From: Pseudomonas putida
Lineage (GTDB): Bacteria; Pseudomonadota; Gammaproteobacteria; Pseudomonadales; Pseudomonadaceae
DNA length: 64,000 bases
NCBI RefSeq assembly: GCF_001941965.1
Contig: NZ_MKZO01000058.1
Span: 62,001 to 126,000 of the forward strand
Direction: 5' to 3'
A program made the position numbers and the translations under genes. Each line of letters opens with the position of its first letter. The stretch's first letter is position 1. Positions 1 to 19,410 of this stretch are shown here, in pieces. The notes under the pieces were generated by a model. That model was not told the DNA's origin. It saw only the letters and a list, made by a program, of their open reading frames with translations, and made no database searches.

Positions 1-528
1 GAGAATCAGTACACGCGAATCTGGGTTGCTGAGAAGCGTCAGCAGCAATTCGACCACAGGCTTTGCAAAACCGTTCGCATCTACAAACCTCATGGTTCCA
101 TTAGTTGGTTGACCACCGATGAAGGGCCGATGGAGGTTCTTAACGATGCCGCAACAGCAGGTCGGGCGATCGTAGTACCCGGCCCGTCAAAGTACCAAGA
201 CGCGCTGGTCAATACCTTGTTCGACGAAATGCGAACCGCGATGAATGCAGCACTCGCCGATGCTCAAGCGTTGTTGTGCATTGGGTTTGGCTTCAATGAC
301 GACCATCTGCAAGGCGTCATCAAACGCCGTCTGGCGGCAGGCATGCCCGCAATCATTGTCACGCGCGACTCCACCCCGAACATTGAACAACTGCTTGGCG
401 AACACCCTCACGTGATCGCTGTGTTCAGGAACGGTGACGGGGCGGTTTGCCGCTGGAATGGGAATGCATTGCAGTCTTCAGAGCCAATCTGGCAACTTGA
501 TGATTTTCTGAAAAAATTTGTGGAGTGA
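1..528 (+). CDS. SIR2-like domain protein, C-terminal part (gene starts before the window)
   Basis: The reading frame is open from base 1, so the first in-window ATG is not the real start. What remains, about 175 residues, looks like the C-terminal half of a SIR2-like NAD-binding domain of the SIR2_2 type. It has a KPHGSISW segment early on, then LLCIGFGFNDDHLQ and a following strand typical of this fold. Known relatives act in antiphage defence by degrading NAD when partnered with a HerA ATPase or an Argonaute. The stop codon lies 7 bp before the HerA ATG, so the two are surely co-transcribed and probably work together. The catalytic N-terminal residues are outside the window and cannot be checked. 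The SIR2-like assignment is good; NADase activity is inference. Confidence 0.75.
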   Translation, partial: ENQYTRIWVAEKRQQQFDHRLCKTVRIYKPHGSISWLTTDEGPMEVLNDAATAGRAIVVPGPSKYQDALVNTLFDEMRTAMNAALADAQALLCIGFGFNDDHLQGVIKRRLAAGMPAIIVTRDSTPNIEQLLGEHPHVIAVFRNGDGAVCRWNGNALQSSEPIWQLDDFLKKFVE

Positions 529-535
529 GGCAAGG

Positions 536-2329
536 ATGAGCATTTTCAACTTCACCGACGAGCAGTCACTGGGCGAAGTCCGCAGTGTGGAAACCTCGCG
601 GATCACCGTGCGGGTGACGGACGGTCAACGTCTGCAAAAAGCGCGCGTCGGTCGACTGGTTGCCATCCAGTCGATAGGGGATGAATGGCTGATCGGCATC
701 ATCGAAAGAGTGTGGCGACATCCGGTGGAGCTGCCGACGCTACCAGAAGCTGACCCACCAGCGGATATTGCCGGTGTTCCCCAGGAGGAAAACGGCGTGT
801 CGATCAGCTTGGTCGGCACCTATCGCGCTCGGGATGGGCAGCGCAAGGACACCTTCACGCGCGCAGTTTTCATGCTGCCGGAGATCAACCGCCCTGTGTT
901 CCCCATCGAAGAAAAGTCTCTCGAAGAATTCATGGGCATCTTGAGTGCATCGTCCAAGGCGGATGCCGCTGCCCCGCTCAAGGTCGGCACCTACACCCTG
1001 GATGGCAAGGCCAGCGCCTATATCGATGGCGACAAGCTTTTTCAGCGCCATGCCGCGTTGCTGGGCAGCACCGGCTCAGGGAAATCCTTCACTGTCGCAT
1101 CCATCCTAGAGCAGTCCGCGCAACTGCCTCACGCCAATATCGTTGTGCTCGATTTGCATGGCAAGTATTCGAGCATGAAATTCGCGTCGCATTACCGCAT
1201 CGCTGGTATTGGCGACATTAAAGCCAAGAAAGACGGGGCGATCTTCCTGCCGTTCTGGCTGCTGACCTATGACGAAATGCAATCGGTATTTGTGGATCGC
1301 TCAGGGGACAACGCACCCAATCAGGCACTTGCGCTCATGGATTCCGTCATGGTGATGAAGCGCGCAGCTATAGCCGCGCTTGGCAAGCCAGACCTTTTGG
1401 AAGGCTTCACCGTTGATACACCAGTACCTTACCGGCTTGCTGATCTTGTCCAATCGCTGGATGACAAAAACGACGAAGCTATTGATACCGGGGAAACCTA
1501 CGCAAGCGGCCCGCGCAAAGGTCTAGCCAAAACCGAAAAAGGTCCATTGAATGGCAAGCTCTCGCGCTTCCTCATTCGCTTGAAAACCAAGATGAACGAT
1601 CGCCGTTATGCGTTCATGTACCAGGCGCCGGAGGAATACGAGACTTACGAGGCGCTGCACGATCTCGCAAAAAAACTGCTCGGCACAGGTAACGTCAACG
1701 ATGGCGTCAATCCTGGCATCAAGATCATCGATTTCTCGGAAGTGCCCTCGGATATCCTGCCGGTAGTGGTGGGCTTGGTCGGGCGGCTGATCTACCAAGT
1801 TCAGTTTTGGAGCAGCCCGGGCGAAGACGGTGATGCGCGCCACCCTATTGTCATCGTCTGCGATGAGGCGCATCTCTATCTGCCAAGCAGTGCCGCTTCC
1901 ACCGGGCCGCTGGAAAAGCGCGCCCTGGAAAATTACGAGCGCATCGCCAAGGAAGGCCGTAAATATGGCGTTGGTCTAATGGTGGTCAGTCAGCGTCCCT
2001 CGGATGTCAGCACGACCATTCTTAGCCAATGCAGCAACATCATCAGCCTGCGCCTGGCGAATAAGACTGACCAGGCAGTGGTCAGGCAGCTCCTGCCTGA
2101 AAGCCTGGAAGGGTTGATGGAGGTACTGCCGACGCTGGATGTGGGCGAGGCTGTTGTGGTGGGCGACGCCACCTTGCTGCCGACCCGCATCAAGATGTCC
2201 AAGCCCAAACACGAACCACGCAGTGCAACGATCCCCTTTTGGTCGCGCTGGGCCACGCCCAAAGCGGAAGTTGATTTGGTTGCCGCGGTAGAAAACATGC
2301 GCAGGCAGTCGCGCGCACAAGAAGATTAA
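536..2329 (+). CDS. HerA/DUF87-type hexameric ATPase of the defence operon
   Basis: A 597-residue P-loop ATPase of the HerA/FtsK superfamily. An N-terminal HAS-barrel-like beta region (about residues 1-80) is followed by Walker A GSTGSGKS near residues 177-184 and Walker B VIVCDEAH with D443-E444. An arginine-rich stretch, GRKYGVGLMVVSQRPSDVS, follows and is typical of HerA sensor/arginine-finger segments. HerA proteins form hexameric rings that move on or sense DNA; in defence loci they pair with SIR2, nuclease or methylase subunits. I chose ATG 536, preceded by TGAGG at 526-530, over an upstream in-frame TTG at 518. The gene sits 7 bp after SIR2 and 10 bp before the methylase, so it is one operon. 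Partnership with SIR2 is inferred from adjacency. Confidence 0.88.
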   Translation: MSIFNFTDEQSLGEVRSVETSRITVRVTDGQRLQKARVGRLVAIQSIGDEWLIGIIERVWRHPVELPTLPEADPPADIAGVPQEENGVSISLVGTYRARDGQRKDTFTRAVFMLPEINRPVFPIEEKSLEEFMGILSASSKADAAAPLKVGTYTLDGKASAYIDGDKLFQRHAALLGSTGSGKSFTVASILEQSAQLPHANIVVLDLHGKYSSMKFASHYRIAGIGDIKAKKDGAIFLPFWLLTYDEMQSVFVDRSGDNAPNQALALMDSVMVMKRAAIAALGKPDLLEGFTVDTPVPYRLADLVQSLDDKNDEAIDTGETYASGPRKGLAKTEKGPLNGKLSRFLIRLKTKMNDRRYAFMYQAPEEYETYEALHDLAKKLLGTGNVNDGVNPGIKIIDFSEVPSDILPVVVGLVGRLIYQVQFWSSPGEDGDARHPIVIVCDEAHLYLPSSAASTGPLEKRALENYERIAKEGRKYGVGLMVVSQRPSDVSTTILSQCSNIISLRLANKTDQAVVRQLLPESLEGLMEVLPTLDVGEAVVVGDATLLPTRIKMSKPKHEPRSATIPFWSRWATPKAEVDLVAAVENMRRQSRAQED

Positions 2330-2339
2330 GGACGCTTGA

Positions 2340-5300
2340 ATGGCCACCAAAAAAGAACTACTTGCACAGCAAGTCGCCAAAGCCGTCGGGGCGGGCAAGC
2401 CCGTCGCGCTGGAAACGGTCGATTTCAACGACCCCAACCGCGCCAAAACCTGCCTGGAGGTGGATTTCCCGATCCTGCCCGTCAATCAAGTGGCGATCAT
2501 CGAAGGCAACGCGGGCAAGCCGATTTACCAGATGTCAAAGTGGTGGGCGCGGCGGCGCTCCAGCGTGTTTCGTTCGATGTTGATCGCTGCGGCGACCAAG
2601 GCCCCCGAAGACAAATCGCACGCGGCCAAACTGGTGTGGGACAACTACTACGCCAACCACCAGAAGAAGGGCGCGTTCAAACACCTGAAGGTGGCGGACA
2701 TCTTCATGGGCGGCGGCACCACATTGGTGGAAGGCTCGCGCCTAGGCATGCAGATGGTCGGCAACGACCTCAACCCGGTCGCGTGGTTCGTGGTCAAACA
2801 AGAACTGGCCAACGTCGATCTGGAGGAAGTGAAGAAGCTTCTCGCCGACATCGAGGCCGAGGTCAAGCCGCAGATCATGCCGTACTACTACTGTGACGGC
2901 CCTGAAGGTGAGAAAGGCACGTGGACGCACCTGCCGTCGAACAAGGCAATGCCTGCCGATTTCGACCCGCTCGCCATCCCGCAGGGCGAGCGCAAGGATT
3001 ACCGTTACGAAGGCCCGGAGGCGATCTATACCTTCTGGGCCAAGCATGGCCCTTGTCAGGTGACGGGTTGCGGCCACCGCACACCGATCATGACCAGCCC
3101 GGTGATGGCGGTGAAAACCATTAGCGTGAAGCACTGGGAACATACGTGCAGCAAATGCAGCGGCGAATTTCACGTTGAAGAGGAAGCCGCACGGATGGCG
3201 CCGGATGCGCCGCTGTATGTCGCGCCGGATGAACACCCGTTCTCCGTGCTCGACCGTAGAAAGGGTGTGATCTGCCCGCATTGCGGCCATGCGGCAATGG
3301 TCAACCTGGGCAAGCCGAAAAAGCCGAACAAAAAGGTCGAGCTAAGCTTGCTGGTACATCCGCAATGGCTGGCAGGCGAAGCCAAGCAGGACGCGAGTGG
3401 GCAGCCCTACGGCGGCTCGGCGCAAGACGACGTGGCCGCGACCACGCGGTGGGACAGTGAGCGGGCATCGAAGATTCGACTGCTGGAGGTGCGTGGTGCG
3501 CTGCCAGATGAGGTGGCGTGCCCGGAAACGAAGATCACCTTTGCGCCGGAAAGCGGCACGGTGCCGAAAAAATCCCACTACACCTGCGCAGCCTGTGGCA
3601 CGGTGCAGGATGTGCTGACCACAATCAAGGCGACGGGCAAGACCGGGCCGATGGCTGCCTACGCGGTGCAGGGCTACGCGCCCAAGCGCGATGCGGCTGG
3701 CAAACCTTACAGCGGCCGCTTCTTCGCAGCCTACGGCACGGCGCACGCACTGCAATACGACGCAGCGTTCGCTGAATGGGAAGCGCGCAAGGATAAGGAC
3801 CTCAAGGACTACTGGCCGCGCTCTGAGCTTCCCTATGGCTTCATGACCCATCACCTGCAAGGCGGCGTGCCGAACCACGGCTTCACGCACTGGTGGACGA
3901 TGTTCAATCCGCGCCAGTTGCTGGTGCATGCTCAACTGCTCAAGGCGATTGTTGAAATCGGAAACTACGACTGGAATGTACGCGAGTTTGTAGTCGGGGC
4001 TTTTCAGCAGTATTTGCGGAATCAGAATCTGTTCTGTTTTTGGGACAGCGGCTATGACAAGCTCGTACCGCACATGAGTAACAACAACTATCACCCCAAG
4101 AATAATATCGTTGAAAACAGCGTATTCCCGGTGCTGGGTCGTGGCAATTGGGCTTCTTGTATCGATGGGATAAATGAAGGCCGCAAATGGGCGGCTCAAC
4201 CATGGGATTCGGTGAGCATCGAAGCGCTGAAGCGTGGCGATCCCGTGTTGGCGGACCAGTTGGTCGGAAAAAGCGAAAAGGTCTACCCCGGCGATCCAGT
4301 GCTAGATGTGGCCGTGCACCAGGGATCATCTACAGATTTGGCACAGCTTGACAACGGCACTCTTGATCTGGTCATCACCGATCCGCCCTTCGGCGGTTTG
4401 CTGCATTACTCGGAATTGTCCGATTTCTTCTACGTATGGCTGCGCCTGGCGCTCAAGGACAAGTACCCGGCGATTTTCGCCGCGGAATACACGCCCAAAT
4501 CGCTGGAAGCTGTGGCCAACCGTGCTCGCGAACCGGAAGATCCGGATGGCTTCTACCAGCGCCTGCTCACCCAGTGCTGGCGCGAGGCGCATCGCCTCTT
4601 GAAGCCCAGCGGCATCCTGGCCTTCACCTTCCACCACAGTGAGGATGAGCCGTGGGTGGCGGTTCTGGAATCGCTGTTCGACGCGGGCTACTACCTCGAA
4701 GCAACCTACCCCATTCGCTCCGACGAAACCAAGGGCGAAGGCGAATTCGGCTCCAAGACCATCGAATACGACATCATCCACGTCTGCCGCAAGCGCACCG
4801 AAGAACCAAAGCCGGTGAGCTGGGGCCGGATGCGCCGCGAAGTGATGGCCGATGTGCGCCAGTTGCAGGCCATGCTGGAAAACCACGCCAAAGAGGGTCT
4901 GCCCGCTGCCGACATCCAGGTCATCCGGCGCGGCAAGGCGCTGGAATATTTTTCTCGCCACTACGGCAAGGTCTATGTAGACGAAGGCCGCACCATCTCC
5001 GTCCGCGACGCGCTGGTCGGTATCAACCAGCTCATCGACGAAGACGCCGACAAGGGCAAGGAGCCGCCGCCGGTCAACGCCGAACCGATGACGCGCCAGT
5101 TTCTGCGCACCTTTGGCGCGGCCACCGAGATGAAGCGCGACCAGTTGCAGAAGTTTCTGCGCGGCACCATCACCACACCGGATGACTTTGAGCAGCGTGG
5201 CTGGTGTAGTGAGGTGAAAAAAGTCTTCACCCGCACTGCGCCGCTGGATTTCGCTCGCGATTGGCAAGGCAAGCACAAGCGCAAGCTCACCTCCGACCTC

Positions 5301-5558
5301 GATCAGGCGCTGGTGCTGATCGGCGCCTGCGTGGACGGCAGCGGCATCAATGCCTCGGACACACTGACAAACGAAAACTTCAAGCCGCATGTGGCACTGA
5401 AGCCGCTGCTGGAATGGCTGCAAAAGAACGGCTCCGATCAGACCACCCGCAACGCGGCGTCGCGCGCGGTGGCGATCTTCTCCACCTGGCAAGCCAGCCA
5501 GGCACCCAAGCCGCAGCAGGTTTCGCTGTTCGATGACGATGAGGAGTACACGCAATGA
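2340..5558 (+). CDS. DUF1156 adenine-specific DNA methylase-like protein
   Basis: A 1072-residue protein with an N-terminal DUF1156 region (FPILPVNQVAIIEGNAGKPI, then the KWWARRRSSVFRSML stretch). SAM-binding motif I, DIFMGGGTT, is at D120-T128, and the catalytic motif IV, DPPF, is at D681-F684 within ITDPPFGGLLHYSELSDFFY. Between them lie several CxxC-type zinc-ribbon pairs (for example CSKC, CPHCGH, CAACG). This is the COG1743 family, used as the PglXI methylase of type 3 BREX and found in other defence arrays. It probably methylates host DNA at adenine as a self mark. Its stop overlaps the next ATG by 4 bp. The methylase fold is secure; the target site and whether it protects or restricts are unknown. 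Confidence 0.88.
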   Translation: MATKKELLAQQVAKAVGAGKPVALETVDFNDPNRAKTCLEVDFPILPVNQVAIIEGNAGKPIYQMSKWWARRRSSVFRSMLIAAATKAPEDKSHAAKLVWDNYYANHQKKGAFKHLKVADIFMGGGTTLVEGSRLGMQMVGNDLNPVAWFVVKQELANVDLEEVKKLLADIEAEVKPQIMPYYYCDGPEGEKGTWTHLPSNKAMPADFDPLAIPQGERKDYRYEGPEAIYTFWAKHGPCQVTGCGHRTPIMTSPVMAVKTISVKHWEHTCSKCSGEFHVEEEAARMAPDAPLYVAPDEHPFSVLDRRKGVICPHCGHAAMVNLGKPKKPNKKVELSLLVHPQWLAGEAKQDASGQPYGGSAQDDVAATTRWDSERASKIRLLEVRGALPDEVACPETKITFAPESGTVPKKSHYTCAACGTVQDVLTTIKATGKTGPMAAYAVQGYAPKRDAAGKPYSGRFFAAYGTAHALQYDAAFAEWEARKDKDLKDYWPRSELPYGFMTHHLQGGVPNHGFTHWWTMFNPRQLLVHAQLLKAIVEIGNYDWNVREFVVGAFQQYLRNQNLFCFWDSGYDKLVPHMSNNNYHPKNNIVENSVFPVLGRGNWASCIDGINEGRKWAAQPWDSVSIEALKRGDPVLADQLVGKSEKVYPGDPVLDVAVHQGSSTDLAQLDNGTLDLVITDPPFGGLLHYSELSDFFYVWLRLALKDKYPAIFAAEYTPKSLEAVANRAREPEDPDGFYQRLLTQCWREAHRLLKPSGILAFTFHHSEDEPWVAVLESLFDAGYYLEATYPIRSDETKGEGEFGSKTIEYDIIHVCRKRTEEPKPVSWGRMRREVMADVRQLQAMLENHAKEGLPAADIQVIRRGKALEYFSRHYGKVYVDEGRTISVRDALVGINQLIDEDADKGKEPPPVNAEPMTRQFLRTFGAATEMKRDQLQKFLRGTITTPDDFEQRGWCSEVKKVFTRTAPLDFARDWQGKHKRKLTSDLDQALVLIGACVDGSGINASDTLTNENFKPHVALKPLLEWLQKNGSDQTTRNAASRAVAIFSTWQASQAPKPQQVSLFDDDEEYTQ

Positions 5559-6067
5559 GGCAGGTGCTCGATACGGTATGGCAACGGCGCGGCACCAGCT
5601 GGCTGTGGGATGAGGAGGCACGCAACACCGTGTGCGCGGCGGGCGAGGTTTGGAGCCTGCGGCAGTTTTTGCAGGCGGCAGCCCCCAGTGCACAGGGCTG
5701 GCCGGATGACCTGCCCAGCAACGGCGGGCAGACGTTGGTGGTGGCCGGGCTGGAGGGCAGCTTAGACTTGCTGGCACCCGATCAAGGCGAAATCTGGCTG
5801 GGCGACACGATTAAACGCGCCATCCTGTCATTTCAGGATGAATACGGAGGAGAAGCAGCCTTGATTTTCTGGCTGCCGCAGGGCCAAGGCCGTTTGCGCG
5901 TGCAGGCTTCCACCGACGCTGTGAACTGGCTGTGCGAAGCGCCGCATCGGGGTCAACAGCTCGATTTTGGCCGCCTTCTGTGGGGTGAGGCCAACGAGTA
6001 CCCGCAGGAAATTTTGCTACGCGAGGGCGCGAAAGCCGCCGGCCTATTTCACCTTCGGATTACTTGA
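5555..6067 (+). CDS. Unrecognised 170-residue protein between methylase and helicase
   Basis: I do not recognise this family. The start ATG overlaps the methylase stop (ATGA) and it ends 9 bp before the helicase start, so it is translated as part of the defence operon. The N-terminal third is rich in tryptophan (VWQRRGTSWLWDEEA), and there is no signal peptide, membrane segment or metal motif. A central DEYGGEAALIFWLPQGQGR segment alternates hydrophobic strands and looks like a compact alpha/beta domain. Small proteins at this place in methylase-helicase arrays may be adaptors or specificity subunits, but that is inference. Both in-operon overlaps and codon use like its neighbours support it as a real gene. 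Confidence 0.8.
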   Translation: MRQVLDTVWQRRGTSWLWDEEARNTVCAAGEVWSLRQFLQAAAPSAQGWPDDLPSNGGQTLVVAGLEGSLDLLAPDQGEIWLGDTIKRAILSFQDEYGGEAALIFWLPQGQGRLRVQASTDAVNWLCEAPHRGQQLDFGRLLWGEANEYPQEILLREGAKAAGLFHLRIT

Positions 6068-6076
6068 GGCCAACGC

Positions 6077-8866
6077 GTGCAAGCAGACGACTTAGAGGAT
6101 TTGTTCCAGCCCGGCGAGCGCATCACCCATACTGAATTCGGCCCAGGTGTGGTGCTCGAACCCACGCACGATGGCTATCTGCGCGCGTTCTTCGGCGTGG
6201 TTGGCGAGCGCCGCGTGCCGGTTAGTTCGTTACGCCGCGAGCGCACCCGTACCGAGCGCATTCTGCAATCGGTGGCAGGCGGCTCAGACCGGGCACGCAA
6301 AGCATGGCTTTCTTACGAGGCGCACGCATTGCCGGTGATGGAAAGCGCCTCGGCGCTGACCTCGGCACGCATTGATCTGCTGCCGCATCAAGTGGTGCTG
6401 ACGCACCGCATTGCGACTGCTTCACCACGGCGTTACCTGATCGCCGACGAGGTGGGCTTGGGAAAAACCATTGAAGCCGCGCTGATTCTGCGTGAACTGG
6501 CCAGCCGGGGCGAGTTGACGCGGGCGCTGATGGTCGTGCCCGCAGGCTTGGTGAACAACTGGCACCGCGAGCTGAACGAGGTGTTCAATCTCGACTTCGA
6601 GGTGTTTGGCTCCGAGGGCGACATTACCGATCGCAAGACCAATGCCTTCGCCAAACACGATCGGCTGATTGCCAGCATCGACACATTGAAGCGCCCGGCG
6701 CGCATCAAGCGTCTGCTGGACGCGCCTCGGTGGGATCTGGTGGTGTTCGACGAGGCGCATCACCTGACCGCCCACCGCACGGGCGGCAAGGTGCGCAAGA
6801 CGGAAAACTACAAGCTGGCCGAGGCATTGAAGGATCACGCGCGTGATCTCTTGCTCCTGTCTGCCACGCCGCACCAAGGCAATCACTTCCAGTTCTGGAT
6901 GCTCGCGCAGCTTTTGAACCCCACGCTGTTTGGCAGTTCCGAGGACATGCTGGAAAACCGTCATCGCCTGAACACGGTGATGTTTCGTCGCACCAAGGCC
7001 GATGCCTGCCAACCGGATGGCTCACCGCTGTTTGCACGGCGCTGGGTGCATACCGAATCTTTCCTGATGAATCAGGAAGAGCGGCTGTTTTACGAGAGGC
7101 TGCGCGAATACTTGGAAGACGGTTTCGATCTGGCCCGCCGCCAGGGCAACCAGGGACGCGCACTGGGCTTCTTGATGGCGATCTTCCAGAAGATCGCGGC
7201 ATCGAGCTTTGCCGCCGTGCGTCGCACGCTCAAGCGCCGCCTGTTGATGCTGACGCTGCACGAGGCGCTGCTGCGTGACAAGGAGCTGGACATTGAAGGC
7301 CGCGAGCGGCTGACGGAAGAAGCCCGCGAACTGATCCATGCAGAATTTAGGCTGGCGAAGGACAGCGTCGGCCGCAGCGAGGTGGATCGCGTGCTGGCTG
7401 ACCTCAAGTACCGGCTGGTGAAGAAACTGGATGAAGACGCGCTGGAAATGGCCTCCGATCCTTATGGCAGCGAGTATTCGGCTACGCACGCCGAGGAGGC
7501 GGCTTCCGCTGTGGTCGATTTGCATCTGCCCGAGGAGCGGCTGCGCATTGGTGACTTGCTGCGCATCTTCCCGCAGCAGCGCGAGACCAAGGCGCAGAAG
7601 CTGCTTGATGGCTTGGGGCATCTATGGCGACAGGACGCTAACGAAAAGATCGTGATCTTCGCCACCTACCTCGGTACGGTCGATCTGATTGCCCGCGAGA
7701 TTGAACAGGCGTATCCCGGCCAGGGCGTGGTGGTGCTACGTGGCGGCGACCACGGTGCCAAGCTGGCAGCAGAGAAGAAGTTCCGCCTGAAAGACGGGCC
7801 GCGTGTGCTGGTGTGTACCGCGGCAGGCCGCGAAGGCTTGAATCTCCAGTTCGCGCGCATTCTGTTCAATTTCGACCTGCCGTGGAACCCGATGGACATG
7901 GAACAGCGCATCGGGCGCATCCATCGCTACGGCCAGCGCGACACTGCACAGGTTTACAACCTGGTGCTGTCGGACACCATCGAGGGTCGCATCTTCCTGC
8001 TGCTGGATGAGAAGTTGACTGAAATTGCACGCACGGTCGGCAAGGTCGATGATCAGGGCAACGTGGCCGAAGACATGAGGGCGCAGATTCTGGGGCAGCT
8101 TTCCGAGCGGTTGAACTACGACCGCCTGTACCAGGAGGCGCTGTCCGATCCCGAACTGAAACGCACCCAGGTGGAGCTGGAAGCGGCGCTGTCCAATTCC
8201 CGCGAGGCACGGCAGGTGGTGTTCGACCTGTTTCAAGACCTCGACGGTTTCAGTCTAGATGATTACCAGCCTTTCTCGGATGTGTCATCCAGCCTGGATC
8301 GGCTAGTGCATTTCCTGTCAGCGGCAGTGGCAGATCGCCAGCAGAAACTGCTGAAGGTCGATGAGGAGACCTACGACCTTGTAACAGTGGATGGCACGCG
8401 CCGTGCGCGTTTCACATTGAGCCGCGACACCGCCACCAGCAGGGACGATCTGGAGCTGATGGGGCTGGATCACCCGGTGGTACAGGAAGAGCTGGGCCGC
8501 TGGCGCAGCGTGACGCCCGAAGACATCGGCATTGCGGTGGTCGGGGATGTTGACGAGCCGGTGGTGCTGTCCTTGTGGATGGTGGAGGCGTCTGCGGGCA
8601 ACGGCGAACGTCGTGTGGTGGTGCAGCCCATCGCAGTCAAGCAGGACGGGGCACGGGTACCGGCGATTGAGCGGCAGTGCGAAAGGTATCTGCAAGCACC
8701 GACGATCTCGCCGAGCTTTACACCGGAGCAGCGGCTGGCGCTGTTCGCCCACACCGTGGAGCCGACTCTGCAACGTGAACTGAAGCACAAGGGCGCTGCA
8801 AATGGGGACGGTAGCTATTCGGCGGAGCTGATTGGATATGTTGAGATCATTGCTCAGGCGACTTGA
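6077..8866 (+). CDS. SNF2-family DEAH helicase of the defence operon
   Basis: A 929-residue superfamily 2 helicase. An N-terminal small beta domain (about residues 10-50, THTEFGPGVV and following) resembles a CarD/Tudor-like fold. Then come Walker A DEVGLGKT (K130), DEAH box D225-H228, LLLSATPHQGN (motif III), and a C-terminal half with EGLNLQ and QRIGRIHRYGQ (motif VI, about residues 610-620). The long C-terminal region is family-specific. SNF2 helicases of this kind (HepA/DrmD-like) translocate on double-stranded DNA and occur in DISARM, BREX type 3 and related arrays. The start is GTG 6077 with GAGG at 6066-6069. It is the last plus-strand gene of the operon; no clear intrinsic terminator was seen in the 102 bp before the convergent DUF1016 gene. 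Confidence 0.9.
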   Translation: MQADDLEDLFQPGERITHTEFGPGVVLEPTHDGYLRAFFGVVGERRVPVSSLRRERTRTERILQSVAGGSDRARKAWLSYEAHALPVMESASALTSARIDLLPHQVVLTHRIATASPRRYLIADEVGLGKTIEAALILRELASRGELTRALMVVPAGLVNNWHRELNEVFNLDFEVFGSEGDITDRKTNAFAKHDRLIASIDTLKRPARIKRLLDAPRWDLVVFDEAHHLTAHRTGGKVRKTENYKLAEALKDHARDLLLLSATPHQGNHFQFWMLAQLLNPTLFGSSEDMLENRHRLNTVMFRRTKADACQPDGSPLFARRWVHTESFLMNQEERLFYERLREYLEDGFDLARRQGNQGRALGFLMAIFQKIAASSFAAVRRTLKRRLLMLTLHEALLRDKELDIEGRERLTEEARELIHAEFRLAKDSVGRSEVDRVLADLKYRLVKKLDEDALEMASDPYGSEYSATHAEEAASAVVDLHLPEERLRIGDLLRIFPQQRETKAQKLLDGLGHLWRQDANEKIVIFATYLGTVDLIAREIEQAYPGQGVVVLRGGDHGAKLAAEKKFRLKDGPRVLVCTAAGREGLNLQFARILFNFDLPWNPMDMEQRIGRIHRYGQRDTAQVYNLVLSDTIEGRIFLLLDEKLTEIARTVGKVDDQGNVAEDMRAQILGQLSERLNYDRLYQEALSDPELKRTQVELEAALSNSREARQVVFDLFQDLDGFSLDDYQPFSDVSSSLDRLVHFLSAAVADRQQKLLKVDEETYDLVTVDGTRRARFTLSRDTATSRDDLELMGLDHPVVQEELGRWRSVTPEDIGIAVVGDVDEPVVLSLWMVEASAGNGERRVVVQPIAVKQDGARVPAIERQCERYLQAPTISPSFTPEQRLALFAHTVEPTLQRELKHKGAANGDGSYSAELIGYVEIIAQAT

Positions 8867-8968
8867 TGCTGGAAACCGAAGGCGTCACGGATCAGCGCCG
8901 AATGGCTGTGATTCGCTACTAAGCAGGAGGGAGCCCGCGAGCCCGACAGCAACAAGCCGGACACACGA

Positions 8969-10135
8969 CTACAGCTTGCCTTCCTTGAGGAAAAGCGTTC
9001 CGCGAGATTCAAGCAGACGCCGCGTGTGCTCCAGTTCCTTTTGCAGCAGTTCGGCATCCGGCAATACCGTCCGGTAGTTCGCCGCCATCACCTTGGTCGG
9101 CAAGCCATCCAGCGCATACCGCGCCAGGGCATGACCCTTGTCTGCGCACAGGATCAGGCCCACCGGTGGGTTCTCGTCCGGGTAAGCCCAATGCTCCTTG
9201 GCATAGTTGCAGTACATGTGCATCTGCCCCACATCGGCATGGGTCAGGCTGCCCAGCTTCAGATCAATGATGACCAGGCAGCGCAGCTTGCGATGGAAGA
9301 ACAGCAGATCGACCCGATACCAGGTCTGGTCGATGCGCAGCCGACGTTGCCGCCCGACGAAGGTGAAGCCTTCGCCTAGTTCCAGCAGGAAGTCTTCCAG
9401 GCGCTGGATCAAGGCCGCTTCCAGGTCGGATTCCGAATACTCGTCCTTGAGGTCGAGGAACTCCAGCACATACGGGTCTTTGATCGCATCATTGGGTGTG
9501 ACCGCATCCTCGGGTTTGGCCACGGAGCCCTTGACCAGCATCGCCGCCTTGTCCTTGGACAAGGCCGTGCGTTCGTAGAACTGGCTTCCAATCTGTCGAT
9601 CGAGCTGGCGCACACTCCAGCCACCGCGCAGCGCCTCGGCCTCGTAGAACTGGCGGGCATGGTCATCCTTGACCGACAGCAGCCGGACATAGGCCGACCA
9701 CGGCAGGGTGAAGACCTGGGCCAGTTCGGAGAGGTCGAATTTCCGAGACACCGTCTCGGAATTTTCGATAGGCAGTCCGTCTCCAGATTTCCGAGACAGT
9801 GTCTCGGAAATTGCCTCAAGGGGGTAAGCGGCGAAGAAGCGCCGCATGTTCTCCAGGTTGTCCGGGCTGAAACCACGCCCGAATCGCGCTGTCAGGTCGG
9901 CGGACAACCGCGCCATCAACTGCTCGCCGTAACCGGCCCGTCGTCTGCCTTTCTGCTCGGCTTCGACGATCCTGCGGCCAATCTCCCAATAGCTGGCCGT
10001 CATCAGCGCATTGACACTGCGCGCCGCTGCCTGGCGCGCCGCATCCAGAAGTTCCACGATGCCGCCGTGGATACCGGCATAGCCGGCAGGTAAGGCAGAA
10101 GGTTTCCGCGTCGCCACGGGCATCTTCCTTGTCAT
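8969..10135 (-). CDS. DUF1016/YhcG-type PDDEXK nuclease family protein
   Basis: A 388-residue protein with the two-part architecture of the DUF1016 family. The N-terminal helical region has SYWEIGRRIVEAEQ and GRGFSPDNLENMRRFF, then the family hallmark LPWSAYVRLL. The C-terminal PDDEXK-like core has D276 in RVDLLFFHR and D291-L-K293 in VIIDLKLG. Members are predicted nucleases, often carried on islands and next to restriction systems. Its ATG overlaps the integrase stop (ATGA, 10132-10135), so the two are co-translated. The inter-domain linker contains two copies of an S-E-T-[LV]-S-R-K-like peptide encoded by palindromic DNA (listed separately). Nuclease activity is inferred from the motif. 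Confidence 0.88.
   Translation of the reverse strand: MTRKMPVATRKPSALPAGYAGIHGGIVELLDAARQAAARSVNALMTASYWEIGRRIVEAEQKGRRRAGYGEQLMARLSADLTARFGRGFSPDNLENMRRFFAAYPLEAISETLSRKSGDGLPIENSETVSRKFDLSELAQVFTLPWSAYVRLLSVKDDHARQFYEAEALRGGWSVRQLDRQIGSQFYERTALSKDKAAMLVKGSVAKPEDAVTPNDAIKDPYVLEFLDLKDEYSESDLEAALIQRLEDFLLELGEGFTFVGRQRRLRIDQTWYRVDLLFFHRKLRCLVIIDLKLGSLTHADVGQMHMYCNYAKEHWAYPDENPPVGLILCADKGHALARYALDGLPTKVMAANYRTVLPDAELLQKELEHTRRLLESRGTLFLKEGKL
9741..9811. repeat. Two in-frame copies of a near-perfect palindrome inside the DUF1016 gene
   Basis: Copy 1 has arms TTCCGAGAC (9741-9749) and GTCTCGGAA (9753-9761) around a 3-base loop. Copy 2 has an 11-bp perfect stem, ATTTCCGAGAC (9787-9797) and its complement (9801-9811), around AGT. 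The units are 48 bp apart, exactly 16 codons, and each encodes the E-T-[LV]-S-R-K motif in the linker before LPWSAYVRLL. The DNA is conserved as a hairpin beyond what the peptide needs, which suggests an expanded or inserted short palindrome. Confidence 0.8.
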
Positions 10136-11331
10136 TCTGCCACCTCCATAGAGCGGGATGCCCCGGTGATCGCCAGCCGCCGATTCGCCACCAGTTCGGC
10201 CGCATCCCGCACCGGCTTGTCCTCGGTATGAACATAGTGCATAAACATCGCCACGGTCTTGTGGCCTGTGAGCTTCATGCCCACCTTGGTCGGCACGCCC
10301 GAGTTCGCAATATCGGTCGTCGCCCGGTGGCGGATGCCATGTGTGCCAACGTGCGGCACACCAGCGGCCTTGAGCACGCGCTTCCAGCCGCCGTAGTGTT
10401 CGCCGTGTGTCATGTGCCGGGTCGGGTCGTTGGGCGACGGCAGGACGTAGGGGCAGCCGTCCCGGCGCGGTGCGGTAGACAGCAGCCGATAGGCTTCCTC
10501 GCTCATGGGCTTGGAGATACCGCCGGTCTTGCTGTCGGGCCAGACGACGCGGCGGTTTTCCAGATCAACCCAGCCCCATTCCAGTGGGCAGATTTCGGAG
10601 CGGCGGGCGGCGAATTCGAATTGCAGGCGGATCGCCAGCGGGATGACGTAGTTTTCCAGTCCTTTCGCCTCCAGGTGTTCCAGGTGACGGAAGATCCGCA
10701 CCAGCTCATCGTCCACGATGAGCCGGGTTTCCCTGCCGGGCGGGTACATCGGGACGTGGCGGCACGGATTCGTGCCGTCAGGGCGTAGCCCCCACACTTC
10801 GGCCAGGTTGAACATCTTGCGCAGCACGCCGAAGGTGCGGTTTGCCTCTGCTTGCTTGTAGGCCAGCTTCTTCATCAGCGCGGCCACGTCCGGGCGCTTC
10901 ACGTCCTGCACCTTCATCCGGCCCATGATCGGGATGATGCAACGGTCGATGACGCCCTGATAGCCGCGCTGCGTGCTGGGCTTGTTGCGCTGCTTGGAGT
11001 AGTCCTCCATGAAGGTGTCGCAGAACTCCTTCATGGTCGGCGCCTTGCGGGCGGCGTTCTTGGCAGCGCTGGGATCGCCACCTTTGCGCACCTCGGCCAG
11101 CCATTCCTGCGCCATCGTGCGCGCCTGATCGACGGTCAGTTCCCCGTACTGGCCCAAGGCGGGCTTGCGGCGCTCGCCGGCGTTCGTGCGGTACTGGAGC
11201 ATGAACACTTTGCGGCCTGCTGGGGTGATCTTGCACAGGAAACCCGGCACCACGGTATCCCGCAGTTCGACGGCCTTGTCTTGGGATTGTGCCGCATCGA
11301 CTGCGGACTTGGTGAGCTTGATTTTCGCCAT
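10132..11331 (-). CDS. P4-type tyrosine recombinase (island integrase)
   Basis: A 399-residue site-specific recombinase. The N-terminal DUF4102 arm-binding domain is at about residues 1-90, with RKPALGQYGELTVDQARTMA typical of P4 integrases. It is followed by a SAM-like core-binding domain (about 100-200) and the catalytic domain. The active site is visible: the first Arg in FAARRSEICPLEWGWVD, H-G-I-R-H-R with R334, the GHKT box, and the nucleophile Y366 in MFMHYVH. It integrates and excises the island through a covalent 3'-phosphotyrosine intermediate. It is the outermost gene of the island and is followed directly by the DUF1016 nuclease with a 4-bp overlap. No tRNA gene lies beside it, so the attachment site is not identified. 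Confidence 0.93.
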   Translation of the reverse strand: MAKIKLTKSAVDAAQSQDKAVELRDTVVPGFLCKITPAGRKVFMLQYRTNAGERRKPALGQYGELTVDQARTMAQEWLAEVRKGGDPSAAKNAARKAPTMKEFCDTFMEDYSKQRNKPSTQRGYQGVIDRCIIPIMGRMKVQDVKRPDVAALMKKLAYKQAEANRTFGVLRKMFNLAEVWGLRPDGTNPCRHVPMYPPGRETRLIVDDELVRIFRHLEHLEAKGLENYVIPLAIRLQFEFAARRSEICPLEWGWVDLENRRVVWPDSKTGGISKPMSEEAYRLLSTAPRRDGCPYVLPSPNDPTRHMTHGEHYGGWKRVLKAAGVPHVGTHGIRHRATTDIANSGVPTKVGMKLTGHKTVAMFMHYVHTEDKPVRDAAELVANRRLAITGASRSMEVAE

Positions 11332-11507
11332 GATGACTCCTCGGAAAGCCCGGTTTCCAAGAGCCGCATGGGAGCCACGCGAGGGGAAGCCGGGTCAAGT
11401 TTCAGAAAGCATCGGCATATGTTGAACTCGCCTAAGTAATTGATAAACCTGCTGTATCGAGCCTCGGCGTAGTCCAGCGAATTGCGATGCTGGAGTCATC
11501 GTGAAAC
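11332..11507. other. Island-chromosome junction region (attachment site not resolved)
   Basis: This gene-free stretch lies upstream of the integrase and should hold its promoter and the right attachment site. The terminator of the first core gene sits at 11508-11538, so the junction is likely between about 11400 and 11507, where the sequence becomes more A+T-rich around 11430-11460. I see no tRNA 3' end and no obvious direct repeat within the window. The left end of the island is outside. Confidence 0.4.
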
Positions 11508-11538
11508 AAAAAAGGGCCTCTCAGGTGAGTAGCCCTTT
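11508..11538 (-). terminator. Intrinsic terminator of the 11564-12142 gene
   Basis: On the minus strand an AAAGGGC/GCCCTTT stem (11532-11538 pairing with 11511-11517) is followed by a run of six T. It lies 25 bp after the stop of the periplasmic protein gene. It marks core sequence and so bounds the island on this side. Confidence 0.75.
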
Positions 11539-11563
11539 GGAACGCTGTTGTTCCATTTATCTC

Positions 11564-12142
11564 CTACCGCGAAGTCGACACCTTCAACACCTCGGTATAA
11601 ATCGCATTCACCGTCTGCCCCACCTTCAGGTTCTTCATCCGCGCCTGAAGACCCGGGTTTTCCACCTTCACCACCGTGCTTTTGCCTTCTGGCGGCAGCA
11701 GCGTCACTTCGTGCTTGTCCAGGTCGATCTTGACGATCTTCGAGGTCACCTTCACCTGCCGCACCGCCTCGCCACCCGGGTTGGGATTGTCCTTGGTCGC
11801 GCGGATGCTCATGGCTTCGTCGGTGACCTTGGGAGCCCCACCGACCTCGGTATCGAGGACGTAGGCGACCGAACGCGCGACCTCGATATCCACGGTGTCG
11901 CCAATCTTCAGGTTGGGCAGGGCCTTGGCCTTGTCCGTCAGTTGCAGGGTAACGGGCTGGTTGTCCGCGTCAGCGATGGTCACCTGGTAGTTGGCAGCAT
12001 CGACCGCCAGGACCTTGGTCGTGATGTGGCCTTCAATGGCCTTGGCCCCCAGAGGAATATCGGCCGCCTGAACGCTGACCGCCGCAGTGCAAAGAATCGA
12101 GCCCAACGCTACCGCACTTGCAAGAGACCGAATGGTTTTCAT
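11564..12142 (-). CDS. Periplasmic protein of unknown function
   Basis: A 192-residue protein with a clear Sec signal peptide (MKTIRSLASAVALGSILC, then cleavage after VQA near residue 26). The mature part is beta-rich with two similar halves. Each carries a V-x-A/K-V-D-x-A/K-x-x-x-V-T strand pair (AVDAANYQVTIAD and KIDLDKHEVTLLP) followed by a K-x-G-x-T-V-D/N motif (LKIGDTVDIE, LKVGQTVNAI), suggesting a duplicated OB- or SH3-like barrel. I do not recognise a named family. ATG 12142 is chosen because GGAAGG precedes it and because it gives the signal peptide; an upstream extension has no such support. It stands alone with its own terminator. Confidence 0.8.
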   Translation of the reverse strand: MKTIRSLASAVALGSILCTAAVSVQAADIPLGAKAIEGHITTKVLAVDAANYQVTIADADNQPVTLQLTDKAKALPNLKIGDTVDIEVARSVAYVLDTEVGGAPKVTDEAMSIRATKDNPNPGGEAVRQVKVTSKIVKIDLDKHEVTLLPPEGKSTVVKVENPGLQARMKNLKVGQTVNAIYTEVLKVSTSR

Positions 12143-12472
12143 CGCCTGCCTTCCTTGTGATGGCTGATGGAAATATTTTGTGCGATTTGCACACCGGGCA
12201 TGAGCATAGTCATTGCGTGGCGAACTGCCTGCCAGGGACGCGATCTGCCGCACAAATGGCGTCGAAACAGACAAGAATGTGTCCTGTCCATACGATCAAC
12301 TTCCCGCGAAACCCAGTAAATTCGGGGCCCGGACGCCTTTCCGGTGTCTTGCACCGGCAACCCCAAGTTGCCATTCTGCGACTTGCTGAAACGCTCAGCA
12401 GAGCGGTTGCAAGCAGATCCCAAAGCCCCGTGAGCCGGTGAGCTCATGGCACGTCGTATCGGAAGCCATCGA
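12143..12472. other. Divergent intergenic region, no gene seen
   Basis: This 330-bp gap separates the divergent periplasmic-protein and chemoreceptor genes and must contain both promoters. I see no convincing small gene or RNA. A GC-rich imperfect inverted repeat (CCGGTG...CACCGG, 12351-12360 area) is the only local structure, and no regulator-binding motif is recognised. Confidence 0.4.
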
Positions 12473-16130: not shown

Positions 16131-17312
16131 ATGCTTGCGCAACTCTCGGTTCTGCAAAGCCTGCATCTTCCACTCCGTCTACGCCTGTGGGACGGTCATG
16201 AGTTCGATCTGGGCCCGCAACCCCAGGTGACCATCATGCTCAAGGATCCGAGTCTCATTTCCCAGCTGACACACCCGGGGCTGGATGAGTTGGGCGCGGC
16301 CTTTGTCGAAGGCAAGCTGGAACTGGAAGGCACCATGCTTGAGGTCATCCGCCTGTGCGATGAGCTCAGCGAGGCGCTGCTCAAGGATGAAGAGGAAGTG
16401 CTGCCGGTACGCAGCAAGCATGACAAGGCCACCGACGCGGCGGCGATTTCCTACCACTACGACCTGTCCAACGCGTTCTACCAGCTGTGGCTGGACCGCG
16501 ACATGGCGTACTCCTGCGCCTACTTCAAGACCCCCGACGACAGCCTCGATCAGGCCCAGCAGAACAAGTTCGACCACCTGTGCCGCAAGCTGCGCCTGCA
16601 GCCGGGTGACTACCTGCTGGATGTCGGCTGTGGCTGGGGAGGGCTGGCGCGCTTTGCCGCGCGCGAGTATGGCGCCCGTGTATTCGGCATCACCCTGAGC
16701 AAGGAACAGTTGGCGCTGGGGCGTGAACGGGTGGCGGCGGAAGGCTTGGAGAAACAGGTCGACCTGCAGATTCTCGACTACCGCGACCTGCCTCAGGACG
16801 GCCGCTTCGACAAGGTGGTCAGCGTCGGCATGTTCGAGCATGTCGGCCACGCCAACCTCGAACTCTACAGCCAGCGCCTGTTCGGCGCGGTGCGCGAGGG
16901 TGGCCTGGTGATGAACCATGGGATCACCGCCAAGCATACCGATGGTCGCCCTGTTGGCCGTGGTGCCGGCAACTTCATCGAGCAATATGTCTTCCCCCAC
17001 GGCGAGCTGCCGCACCTGTCGATGATCAGCGGCTTCCTCAGCGAGGCGGGGCTGGAAGTGGTGGATGTGGAAAGCCTGCGCCTGCACTACGCCAGGACCC
17101 TGAAATTCTGGAGCGACAACCTCGAGGGCAATCTCGACAAGGCCGCCACCATGGTCCCGGAAAAGGCCCTGCGCATCTGGCGCCTGTACCTTGCCGGTTG
17201 TTCCTATGCCTTCTCCCGTGGCTGGATCAACCTGCACCAGGTCCTCGCCGTCAAACCCAAGGCCGATGGCAGCCATGACCTGCCGCTGACCCGCGAAGAC
17301 CTTTATCGCTGA
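16131..17312 (+). CDS. cfaA: Cyclopropane-fatty-acyl-phospholipid synthase
   Basis: A 393-residue SAM-dependent enzyme that adds a methylene bridge to unsaturated acyl chains of membrane phospholipids. It shows the family N-terminal lipid-binding region (residues 1-100), then YHYDLSNAFYQLWLDRDMAYSCAYF, SAM motif I LLDVGCGWGGLARFAA, the FGITLSKEQ motif, and FIEQYVFPHGELP, all diagnostic. ATG 16131 is preceded by GGGGAGG at 16117-16123. The gene is divergent from lpd3 and convergent with the cardiolipin synthase gene, the stops abutting at 17312/17313, so two lipid-modifying genes share a 3' junction. The cfaA symbol is an inference from gene order in P. putida; function is secure. Confidence 0.92.
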   Translation: MLAQLSVLQSLHLPLRLRLWDGHEFDLGPQPQVTIMLKDPSLISQLTHPGLDELGAAFVEGKLELEGTMLEVIRLCDELSEALLKDEEEVLPVRSKHDKATDAAAISYHYDLSNAFYQLWLDRDMAYSCAYFKTPDDSLDQAQQNKFDHLCRKLRLQPGDYLLDVGCGWGGLARFAAREYGARVFGITLSKEQLALGRERVAAEGLEKQVDLQILDYRDLPQDGRFDKVVSVGMFEHVGHANLELYSQRLFGAVREGGLVMNHGITAKHTDGRPVGRGAGNFIEQYVFPHGELPHLSMISGFLSEAGLEVVDVESLRLHYARTLKFWSDNLEGNLDKAATMVPEKALRIWRLYLAGCSYAFSRGWINLHQVLAVKPKADGSHDLPLTREDLYR

Positions 17313-18752
17313 TCAGAGGATCGGCGAAATCAGGCGCGCGATACGCATCCCCAGCTGTTGCAGGCGATGCGTATCGCGGCTGTCTTCCGCGGTAATCTCC
17401 CGGGACTGCTCGAAGTCGCTGAGCAGCATGCTTTCCACCGTGCTGGCGAAGCCCGGGTCGATGGTCACCAGGGTGATCTCGAAGTTGAGGCGGAATGAGC
17501 GGTTGTCCAGGTTGGCGCTGCCGATGGCGGCGACATCCTCGTCCACCAGCATGACCTTCTGGTGCAGGAACCCGGGCTGGTAGCGGAACATGCGCACCCC
17601 GGCGCGTACGGCCTCGAAGGCAAACAAGCTGGAGGCGGCATAGACGATGCGGTGGTCCGGGCGCGAAGGGATCAGGATCCGCACGTCCACCCCGCGCATC
17701 ACCGCCAGGCGCAGCGAGGCGAACACCGCCTCGTCGGGGATGAAGTAGGGGCTGGTGATCCACACCCGGCGTTGTGCCGCCTGGATGGCATCGACGAAAA
17801 ACAGCGAACAGGTTTCCTGCGGGTCGGCCGGACCGCTGGCCAGCACCTGGCAGAGCACTCCGTTATCCGGGTAGGTTTCCGGGAGGATCAGTGGCGGCAG
17901 TTTGCGTGCGGCCCAGTACCAGTCTTCGGCGAAGGACTCCTGCAGGCAGGCTAGCACCGGGCCGGTCACCTGCACATGGGTATCCCGCCAGGGCGACAGC
18001 AGTGGCTTGGCGCCCAGGTATTCGTCGCCGACGTTATGCCCACCGAGAAAGCCCTGCACCCCATCCACCACGACGATCTTGCGATGGTTGCGGAAGTTGA
18101 CCTGGAAGCGGTTGAACCAGCCGCGCTTGGTGGCGAAGGCACGGATCTCCACGCCGCCGTCGCGCAGGCTTTGGCTGTAGCGGGCGGGCAGGGCGTGGCT
18201 GCCGACGCTATCGTAAAGCACATAGACCTTCACGCCTTCGGCGGCCTTCTTCAGCAGCAGCGCATGCAGCCGGCGACCGAGGTCGTCGTCATGGATGATG
18301 AAGAACTGCACCAGCACCGTATCGCGGGCCTGCTCGATGGCCTGGAAGATCGCGTCGAAGGTGGCCTTGCCATTGATGAGCAGGCTGACCCTGTTGTTCG
18401 CCAGGCAAGGCATGCGCCCGAGCTTGGGCAGGGCGCGCAGGCCGGCATAGGCGGGCGAGTTGCTGGCGGCCAAGGCCTCCTCGACCCAGGGCCGCCAGTT
18501 GAGGTCGGCCATGGCTACGTGCATTTCCTGGTTGGCCTGGCGCCGGGCCTGGATGTAGGCGTCGAAGGTGCGGCTGCCGAAGACCAGGTAGGGGATCAGG
18601 GTCAGGTAGGGGATGAACAGCAGCGACAGCGCCCAGGCGATCGAGCCCTGGGCGGTGCGCACGGTGAACACCGCATGCAGCGCGGCGATGGCGCCGATGA
18701 AGTGGGTCGCGCCAATCAGGTAGGCGAAGAACTGGGGGCTGTGGTAATCCAT
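17313..18752 (-). CDS. cls: Cardiolipin synthase (phospholipase D family)
   Basis: A 479-residue membrane enzyme that condenses two phosphatidylglycerols to cardiolipin and glycerol. Two N-terminal membrane helices lie at about residues 8-27 and 38-57. Two HKD catalytic motifs are present, HRKIVVVDG in the first half and HQKVMLVD followed by [11 protein letters not shown] in the second. Length matches the ClsA class. ATG 18752 begins just before the first helix; an upstream in-frame extension would add a hydrophilic leader and is rejected. Its stop abuts the stop of cfaA with no spacer, so no room remains for a separate terminator. Confidence 0.93.
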
Positions 18753-18882
18753 ACACGTCCTGTGACGTCCGCCAATCAGTCGTCTAACAGAGCATGTTCC
18801 GGCCTGGTCTTGCAACCCAACCGGCTTTTCGACGTCTAACCCACAGTCCGGCATCGGGCCGGAGATTTTCAGGAGTTATTGG

Positions 18883-19410
18883 ATGAACATTCGTGTGTCG
18901 GCGCTGGCGCTGCTGATTGGCCTGTCGAGTCCCCTGGTTCAGGCGCAGATGCTGCAACCGGGCCTGTGGGAACTGACCACCAGCAATATGCAGGTCGATG
19001 GCAAACCGCTGCCGGACATGGAGTTCATGCTCGGCCAGTTGAAGAACCTGCCACCGGAACAGCGGGCGATGATGGAAGGCGTGCTGGCCAAGCAGGGGAT
19101 CACCGTGGCCGGCAAGGGCGTGCGCTCGTGCCTGACCCCGGAACAGGTGAAGACCGATGACATCCCGCTGCAGGACCCCCAGTCCGGCTGCACCCAGCGC
19201 ATCACCGACCGCAACGGCAAGACCTGGAACTTCGAGTTCAGTTGTCCCAAGGCCCAGGGCACAGGCCAGGCGCAGTTCCTCAGTGACCGTGAGTTCGTCA
19301 CCAAGGTGCAGGGCACCTTCAACGCCTCGGGAGTTCAGCAGCAGGGCAGCATGAACACCCGGGCGGTGTGGTTGGGCGCGAACTGCGGCACGGTCAAGCC
19401 GCGCACCTAA
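18883..19410 (+). CDS. Secreted DUF3617 family protein
   Basis: A 175-residue protein with a signal peptide (MNIRVSALALLIGLSSPLVQA). The mature N-terminus LQPGLWELTTSN is the hallmark of DUF3617 proteins. Three or four conserved cysteines (SCLTPEQV, SGCTQRI, FSCPKA, ANCGT) fit periplasmic disulfides. Function of the family is not established. A GGAG motif precedes the ATG at 18883. The last 4 bp overlap the stop of the convergent carbonic-anhydrase-like gene (19407-19410). Confidence 0.88.
   Translation: MNIRVSALALLIGLSSPLVQAQMLQPGLWELTTSNMQVDGKPLPDMEFMLGQLKNLPPEQRAMMEGVLAKQGITVAGKGVRSCLTPEQVKTDDIPLQDPQSGCTQRITDRNGKTWNFEFSCPKAQGTGQAQFLSDREFVTKVQGTFNASGVQQQGSMNTRAVWLGANCGTVKPRT

Follow-up and report, generated by a model that had tools for sequence, protein, structure and literature searches.

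How does a SIR2-HerA pair, described elsewhere as a two-gene defence system, come to share one operon with a methylase and a helicase that resemble those of BREX type 3? The question is raised by the beginning of a 64,000-nucleotide stretch of Pseudomonas putida DNA (hereafter the window: bases 62001-126000 of contig C58, NZ_MKZO01000058.1, in a genome of 7.06 Mb). A sequence-only reading of the window had proposed a composite defence island, in which five genes for SIR2, HerA, a DUF1156 methylase, a small orphan protein and an SNF2 helicase form a hybrid system, accompanied by an integrase-coupled nuclease. We consider it probable, at roughly 70%, that the locus is a Type-3 BREX-related (BR) operon with a SIR2-HerA cassette inserted in the slot between pglZ and the methylase gene. 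By sequence comparison and by analogy with published systems, a methylation-guided restriction core would thus be combined with a swappable, NAD-depleting second line. Gene content and order, intact motifs, the fidelity of the cassette to one slot, the scattered occurrence of one cassette lineage and the separability of the two halves all argue for this reading.

The operon begins outside the window

The window opens inside the operon. On the preceding stretch (L001, contig positions 44001-64000, of which position 18001 is window base 1), an HTH_17 gene, a DUF499 ATPase gene, pglZ and the front half of the SIR2 gene lie upstream in the same direction (Table 1). The SIR2 gene starts at L001 17452, so that 548 of its bases are outside the window. 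The HTH_17 and DUF499 genes overlap by 1 bp, as do the DUF499 gene and pglZ, and 10 bp separate pglZ from the SIR2 gene. The five plus-strand genes of the window then follow with the spacing that had been described: 7 bp from SIR2 to the ATG of HerA, 10 bp from HerA to the methylase gene, a 4-bp overlap of the latter with a gene for a 170-residue protein, and 9 bp from there to the helicase gene. They do face a minus-strand pair of nuclease and integrase genes.

The sequence-only reading was right to place SIR2-HerA in one operon with a BREX-3-like methylase and helicase, and a two-mode defence of self-marking plus an NAD-based response is still the best reading. However, it held that the usual partners of the methylase were missing. 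This is an error caused by the window edge, which cuts the operon: PglZ and a BrxC-like DUF499 ATPase are encoded immediately upstream, and the core genes of the window are the tail of a known system that is completed there, a case which that reading had itself set against its model. A system without PglZ or the ATPase was therefore rejected as an artefact of the window edge.

Related loci were collected by a genome scan with the methylase alignment, from which the best 80 of 419 confirmed relatives were taken. Seven loci from plasmid records and other genomes (L004-L010) were added, giving 87 loci for comparison, or 88 with this one; L004 and L009 are one plasmid, which is thus counted twice among the 87. 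DUF499 is found in 82 of the 87 and PglZ in 84. Since the core order recurs in these loci, a chance arrangement is excluded. HTH_17-like frames occur in 25 of the 88 loci including this one, and two of these are weak.

Identity of the proteins

The motifs sought were found in SIR2, HerA, the methylase, the DUF499 ATPase, the helicase and PglZ of this locus. SIR2 is matched by the PADLOC model PDLC04087 (8e-92) and by Pfam SIR2_2 (3.4e-13), and its TTNYD and PHGS motifs are aligned with solved SIR2 chains; the Asn and His of these motifs we take to be the catalytic residues. HerA is matched by PDLC04105 (1.5e-222) and by solved HerA chains, and has the motifs GSTGSGKS and DEAH. The helicase belongs to the SNF2 family (6.9e-22), with RapA as a match among solved structures (1.5e-40) and a sub-threshold match to RapA_C. 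It also matches BrxH (3.3e-103) and HmaA (5.3e-93), and no nuclease domain was found in it by the Pfam scan.

The methylase has an N6_N4_Mtase match (3.9e-7) and the motifs FMGGGTT and DPPF, and is nearest to HmaB (1.3e-36) and PglXI (1.6e-23). Its earlier assignment to DUF1156 agrees with its plasmid relatives, which are annotated as 'DUF1156 domain-containing', whereas its own match stays below the Pfam cut-off (16.8 against 24 bits); a search of its own genome with the DUF1156 family gave no match at E 0.001. A zinc-finger recognition insert, a feature of the N6 methylase of Type-3 BR systems, was looked for at the level of sequence, where three CxxC pairs and a variable block at residues 541-660 were found. 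Among 31 near relatives, itself included, with identity measured to this protein, the block shows 57-67% identity per 30-residue block, in contrast to 94-99% in the catalytic blocks. Likewise, window bases 3960-4319 are 58-66% identical in nucleotides to the related locus L011, against 80-94% in other 200-base windows. In sequence, this hypervariable block looks like a swapped recognition domain.

The ATPase and PglZ are less easily recognised. The former has the motifs GERGLGKS and DEFQ, and its match to the PADLOC model HmaC is only 13 bits (E 0.004). The pglZ gene alone gave no match in Pfam or PADLOC. A profile of 57 homologues, however, matched the solved PglZ protein 9nv3 (E 8e-4) and PorX (E 0.01), and the predicted model of the homologue in locus L027 (pLDDT 92) matched PorX (E 2.8e-10) and the Acinetobacter BREX PglZ (E 4.7e-7). 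D105, T140, D248, H249 and H322 are among the residues invariant in the 57 homologues. Judged by profile and predicted fold, the third gene of the operon is a pglZ, encoding a standalone single domain with a conserved putative active site. PADLOC thus recognises SIR2, HerA, the helicase (as BrxH/HmaA) and the methylase (as HmaB), and is blank for PglZ; together with the 13-bit ATPase match, this makes the true nature of the locus easily missed.

The 170-residue protein is conserved in 85 of the 87 loci. Its AlphaFold2 model (pLDDT 93) has RecA/RAD51-type ATPases as best structural matches, which are weak (Z at most 4.8). They are compatible with an inactive P-loop subunit and do not prove it; the protein is possibly such a subunit, of the iSTAND/BrxB-like kind.

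Comparison with known systems

Type-3 BR systems, as given by Rakesh and Krishnan (2026; PMC12839542), comprise a DUF499 ATPase, a standalone PglZ, a methylase, a small subunit and a nuclease-free RapA-like helicase. This locus has the DUF499 ATPase, the standalone PglZ, a methylase and a nuclease-free, RapA-like (BrxHII-like) SNF2 helicase, and a small extra core protein stands in the place of iSTAND. What sets it apart from the systems described there is SIR2-HerA, elsewhere replaced by IetAS or others, between pglZ and the methylase gene. The same article catalogues nuclease back-ups; its main text has no mention of sir2, sirtuin, NADase, TIR, subtilisin or IetAS.

The locus also resembles Hma operons, which combine helicase, methylase and ATPase with nested defence genes. 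The Hma-embedded candidates (HEC) and the principle of 'guilt by embedding' are credited to Payne et al. in PMC12988326, PMC12111858 and PMC12255303. According to these sources and PMC12839542, the embedding of defence genes in Hma, BR and other operons is established, and the cargo behind the 170-residue gene in one related locus (L060) matches HEC-01A. The PADLOC scores of this locus fall from 311 bits for HmaA and 124 for HmaB to 13 for HmaC (E 0.004). Unlike Hma, it has PglZ, and its cargo is a complete two-gene system. With BREX type 3 it shares the PglXI-like methylase, the BrxH-like helicase and the PglZ domain, but it has DUF499 instead of BrxC and a single-domain PglZ of 339 residues. 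Membership in BREX type 3 was rejected on these grounds, as neither the BrxA nor the BrxC model matched any of the operon proteins scanned.

The cassette itself is like the known SIR2-HerA systems in the adjacency of its genes, its catalytic and Walker motifs, its strong PADLOC matches and its similarity to both chains of solved complexes; it is unlike them in being embedded in the operon of another system and in its distinct HerA clade. A review (PMC12198126) describes an assembly of a SIR2 dodecamer with a HerA hexamer; it reports that HerA activates the NADase in one system and that phage genes are degraded in another, and it calls the trigger unclear. In the literature searched, no paper was found that combines HerA, PglZ and SIR2, or SIR2-HerA with a methyltransferase and SNF2, and no slot-faithful SIR2-HerA lineage was found. 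There are papers that mention DUF1156 with HerA, DUF499 with PglZ, or IetAS with BREX. The preprint by Payne et al. may well contain this case.

Cargo slots in related loci

In the related loci, cargo genes occupy fixed positions between core genes. Cargo was defined as a gap of more than 250 bp, and its open reading frames were called mechanically, so that a few of those that are small or antisense may not be genuine. This locus is left out of the slot counts, and L066, whose contig begins inside HerA, comes in addition to the slot-B cargoes counted. Between the DUF499 gene and pglZ (slot A), cargo is present in 1 of 82 measurable loci. Slot B, between pglZ and the methylase gene, holds cargo in 26 of 84 and none in 58, where 31 of the empty gaps measure 12-14 bp. 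The five-gene set of the window is thus not itself the conserved unit. Slot C, between the methylase gene and the 170-residue gene, is filled in 11 of 85 measurable loci, and slot D, between the latter and the helicase gene, in 7 of 84. With partners such as SIR2 and HerA counted separately, 14 families of cargo proteins have more than one member, and 13 of these are confined to one slot.

SIR2-HerA is the slot-B cargo of six loci (L006, L027 of Pseudomonas delhiensis, L046, L047, L056 and L060), as a remnant in L046. Four others (L011 of Hydrogenophaga, L018, L020 and L024) carry IetA-IetS, an AAA protein and a subtilase; that of L020 is matched by PADLOC (2.3e-143 and 0), and the other three were assigned by similarity. 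The C-terminal tail of PglZ varies with the cargo, its last stretch being LSPW.EIS in all four IetAS loci in place of an LSPFVELTK-like one. In the 16 remaining loci the cargo is diverse or unidentified, including MazF-like and metallo-beta-lactamase-like genes. Slot-B proteins of 249-540 residues in L015, L038, L073, L083, L086, L034, L051 and L081 are candidate defence effectors, with no Pfam match at E 0.1 (L034, at E 0.01).

Among slot-C cargo are Schlafen/AlbA_2, a CAP12-type TIR protein, a lipase, a YhcG nuclease and a sub-threshold HEPN match. Slot D contains OLD-type/HEC-01A ATPases, accompanied by DUF4276 in L081, and slot A of L089 contains GmrSD_N with an OLD-like ATPase. The helicase frames of L020 and L056 are broken or split.

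History of the SIR2-HerA cassette

In the HerA tree, the seven embedded loci whose sequence could be used group as one clade (100/99), apart from 14 free-standing SIR2-HerA relatives. Among the latter, row L130 is very long, and branching within the embedded clade is partly open. The free-standing relatives have about 40-48% HerA identity, and no core-gene match was found beside the 14 pairs within the available DNA, some contigs being short.

On the trees of the core genes this one lineage is scattered. The SIR2-HerA label changes 6 times on the methylase tree (8 rows), 7 times on the SNF2 tree (8 rows) and 6 times on the DUF499 tree (7 rows), with at least 5 changes on strongly supported branches in each; the IetAS label changes 4 times for 4 rows. 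These trees, unlike that of HerA, were 'quick' runs, with long-branch warnings for SNF2 and DUF499. They omit L010 (archaeal), L005 (a fragment) and SNF2 or DUF499 pieces under half length, and the 16 other slot-B cargoes were merged into one state. Shuffled labels gave counts as low in 8 of 500 cases on the methylase tree, 116 of 500 on the SNF2 tree and 86 of 500 on the DUF499 tree. Thus, the methylase-tree pattern is due in part to inheritance, which explains little of what is seen on the other two trees.

The divergence of HerA does not follow that of the methylase. HerA of L066, a Bacteroidales bin, is 93% identical to that of this locus and its methylase 64%; in L047 the values are 87% and 76%. 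Recent transfer was considered as the cause of the high HerA identity and rejected, because synonymous sites are near saturation in some pairs (dS 1.7 for L066). HerA is therefore mainly slow-evolving, and its high identity alone is no proof of recent transfer. The case for separate movement is made by the mismatch between HerA and methylase divergence together with the trees.

By methylase, the nearest of the loci compared are L011 and L020, and these close relatives of the core hold IetAS where this locus holds SIR2-HerA, which we count in favour of a swappable cassette; by helicase, L046 with its SIR2-HerA remnant is equally near. In the comparison with L060, nucleotide identity is 62-75% in pglZ and climbs to 86% at the SIR2 start. 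The scattered label, the mismatch of HerA and methylase divergence, this rise in identity and the PglZ tails of the IetAS loci are sequence-level signs that cassettes are exchanged by recombination through conserved flanks, namely the end of pglZ and the start of the methylase gene.

Proposed mechanism

In the mechanism that we infer, including its biochemical steps, its trigger and the co-transcription of the genes, the methylase would mark the DNA of the host at a motif that its variable recognition region (residues 541-660) determines. A complex of DUF499, PglZ and the helicase would recognise unmarked invading DNA and stop or cut it, by analogy with BREX and with the BR relatives in PMC12839542. 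SIR2-HerA, from the same transcript, would form its own complex and drain NAD+ when this first line fails. The drain would end the infection by cell shutdown, by analogy with published SIR2-HerA systems.

Several observations weigh against this reading. The DUF499 ATPase scores low in Pfam (29.2, cut-off 23) and reaches 13 bits against HmaC, and the iSTAND assignment of the 170-residue protein, taken from a predicted model, is weak, with a best Z of 4.8. The sample of loci (best 80 of 419) is not random, and L066 is without sequence upstream of HerA. On the methylase tree the SIR2-HerA label shows some clustering, and inheritance therefore accounts for part of its spread. In L062, a Planctomycetia core locus, distant SIR2 (26%) and HerA (35%) matches lie just behind the helicase gene (16618-19898); being outside slot B, they indicate that SIR2-HerA can accompany the core elsewhere and that its exclusivity is not strict. 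Finally, if a SIR2-HerA lineage is dedicated to this core, the pair might be physically integrated with it and not be an independent second line.

A bolder form of the idea treats the operon as a chassis with cartridge slots. The dedicated SIR2-HerA lineage, with IetAS as an alternative, would have become adapted to activation by the Type-3 BR core and would be exchanged between cores by recombination in the pglZ end and the methylase start, turning restriction into suicide with the sensor unchanged. This is possible, though doubtful.

Loci with one broken half and alternative explanations

It is rather unlikely that SIR2-HerA is an integral effector, with HerA taking DNA or a signal from DUF499, PglZ and the helicase, and SIR2 being triggered by the detection of unmarked DNA. 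The single clade of embedded HerA, apart from free-standing pairs, and its constant slot would fit this explanation, although slot fidelity may merely reflect recombination through conserved flanks. Plasmids provide evidence on both sides. HerA, methylase and DUF499 occur together in 34 Klebsiella, Citrobacter, Raoultella and Enterobacter records of 72,556 plasmid records searched; HerA is 92-95% identical in these, and a search for HerA above 90% identity and one for the methylase lead to one and the same set of 34 enterobacterial accessions, as expected of an integral effector. The records are mostly conjugative (32 of 37 in a 37-record set). Yet DUF499 aligns in full length in only 8, and HerA is retained in the other 26, where the front of DUF499 is missing: 24 of these align from residue 214, one from 79 and one from 244. 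Most front-less copies are probably one inherited event. Outside plasmids, viral contigs gave no relative in a single scan with HerA, and megablast of E. coli genomes with the HerA DNA gave no match.

The plasmid inspected gene by gene (L006, NZ_CP022275.1, 5931-18533) lacks both DUF499 ATPase motifs, and no interruption is annotated in its genes for SIR2, HerA, the methylase, the small protein and the helicase. L006 also carries blaKPC-2. The converse is seen in Comamonas JUb58 (L046), where the cargo has been reduced to SIR2 residues 1-195 and, directly behind them but in a different frame, the 109 C-terminal residues of HerA; the five core genes beside this remnant are full-length. Each half thus persists next to a broken partner, and separable modules are favoured over a single obligate complex. 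Closely related cores also hold the unrelated IetAS in slot B, which likewise speaks against an integral effector.

Separability would also be expected if the slot were a recombination hotspot and SIR2-HerA a hitch-hiking independent defence, linked to the core by shared transcription alone. This explanation, which we regard as improbable, agrees with the many unrelated cargo types in slots A-D, the 58 empty slot-B positions among 84 and the natural loss of either half. However, the junctions are operon-tight, the SIR2 and HerA motifs are intact in the loci with full-length cargo, and in the sets searched the embedded lineage was found in this operon and nowhere else. The stand-alone five-gene hybrid of the sequence-only reading, without PglZ and a BrxC-type ATPase, is very improbable, given the PglZ and DUF499 genes directly upstream in the same operon and their occurrence in 84 and 82 of the 87 related loci.

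In the probable reading, the locus is a restriction-like operon with fixed positions at which whole two-gene defence systems are swapped, suggesting that such operons exchange back-up weapons like cartridges. Related cores that hold SIR2-HerA, IetAS, no cargo or a deleted cargo serve as natural controls. They make it testable whether a defence nested in another system has no more than its promoter in common with that system or acts as its second-stage effector.

Flanking genes and mobile setting

Table 1. Genes and regions of the operon and its neighbours (window coordinates, or L001 coordinates where marked)
Feature	Coordinates	Strand	Evidence
HTH_17 protein, 76 aa	L001 13379-13609, outside window	+	HTH_17 3.3e-18
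DUF499 ATPase, 937 aa, core	L001 13609-16422, outside window	+	Pfam 29.2 bits, cut-off 23
PglZ, 339 aa, core	L001 16422-17441, outside window	+	profile and fold matches
SIR2 NADase-like protein, slot-B cargo, last 175 of 358 aa in window	1..528	+	PADLOC, Pfam, motifs
HerA helicase/translocase, slot-B cargo	536..2329 (ATG 536; frame open from TTG 518)	+	PADLOC, motifs
DNA methylase of DUF1156/HmaB/PglXI kind, 1072 aa, core	2340..5558	+	Pfam, PADLOC, motifs
Methylase residues 541-660, most variable part, putative target recognition region	3960..4319	+	
170-aa core protein, possibly inactive P-loop (iSTAND/BrxB-like) subunit	5555..6067	+	
RapA/BrxH-type SNF2 helicase, 929 aa, core; no nuclease domain recognised	6077..8866 (GTG)	+	
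DUF1016/YhcG PD-(D/E)XK protein (PADLOC PDC-S02), neighbour	8969..10135	-	
Tyrosine integrase, probably of the carrying mobile element	10132..11331	-	

The minus-strand genes overlap by 4 bp. The DUF1016 protein is matched by YhcG_C (2.1e-57) and PDC-S02 (2.4e-140), and the integrase by Phage_integrase (8.3e-20). The pair had been counted as part of the island. Relatives of the DUF1016 protein occur in 2 of the 88 loci, this one and L088, and those of the integrase in 7 other loci with at most 36% identity; the pair is not conserved beside the core and was rejected as a system component. In L088, a DUF1016/YhcG nuclease is itself cargo between the methylase gene and the 170-residue gene (11266-12384).

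On the far side of the operon (L001), Pfam finds genes for a DUF3363 relaxase-type protein, an RPA replication initiator, ParA, ParB and DUF932. This setting suggests that an integrative element carries the operon. By gene order, the setting presumably resembles a Tn4371-type integrative conjugative element, the ends of which were not found: the 8-bp site typical of Tn4371 elements was not seen near the integrase gene, and no exact same-strand repeat of at least 14 bases was shared between window bases 11250-11700 and contig positions 1-126000. Putative conjugation-type genes lie at about 12000-56800 of contig C58; those to the left of the Pfam matches are Trb/TraG-like and metal-efflux-like frames judged by eye.

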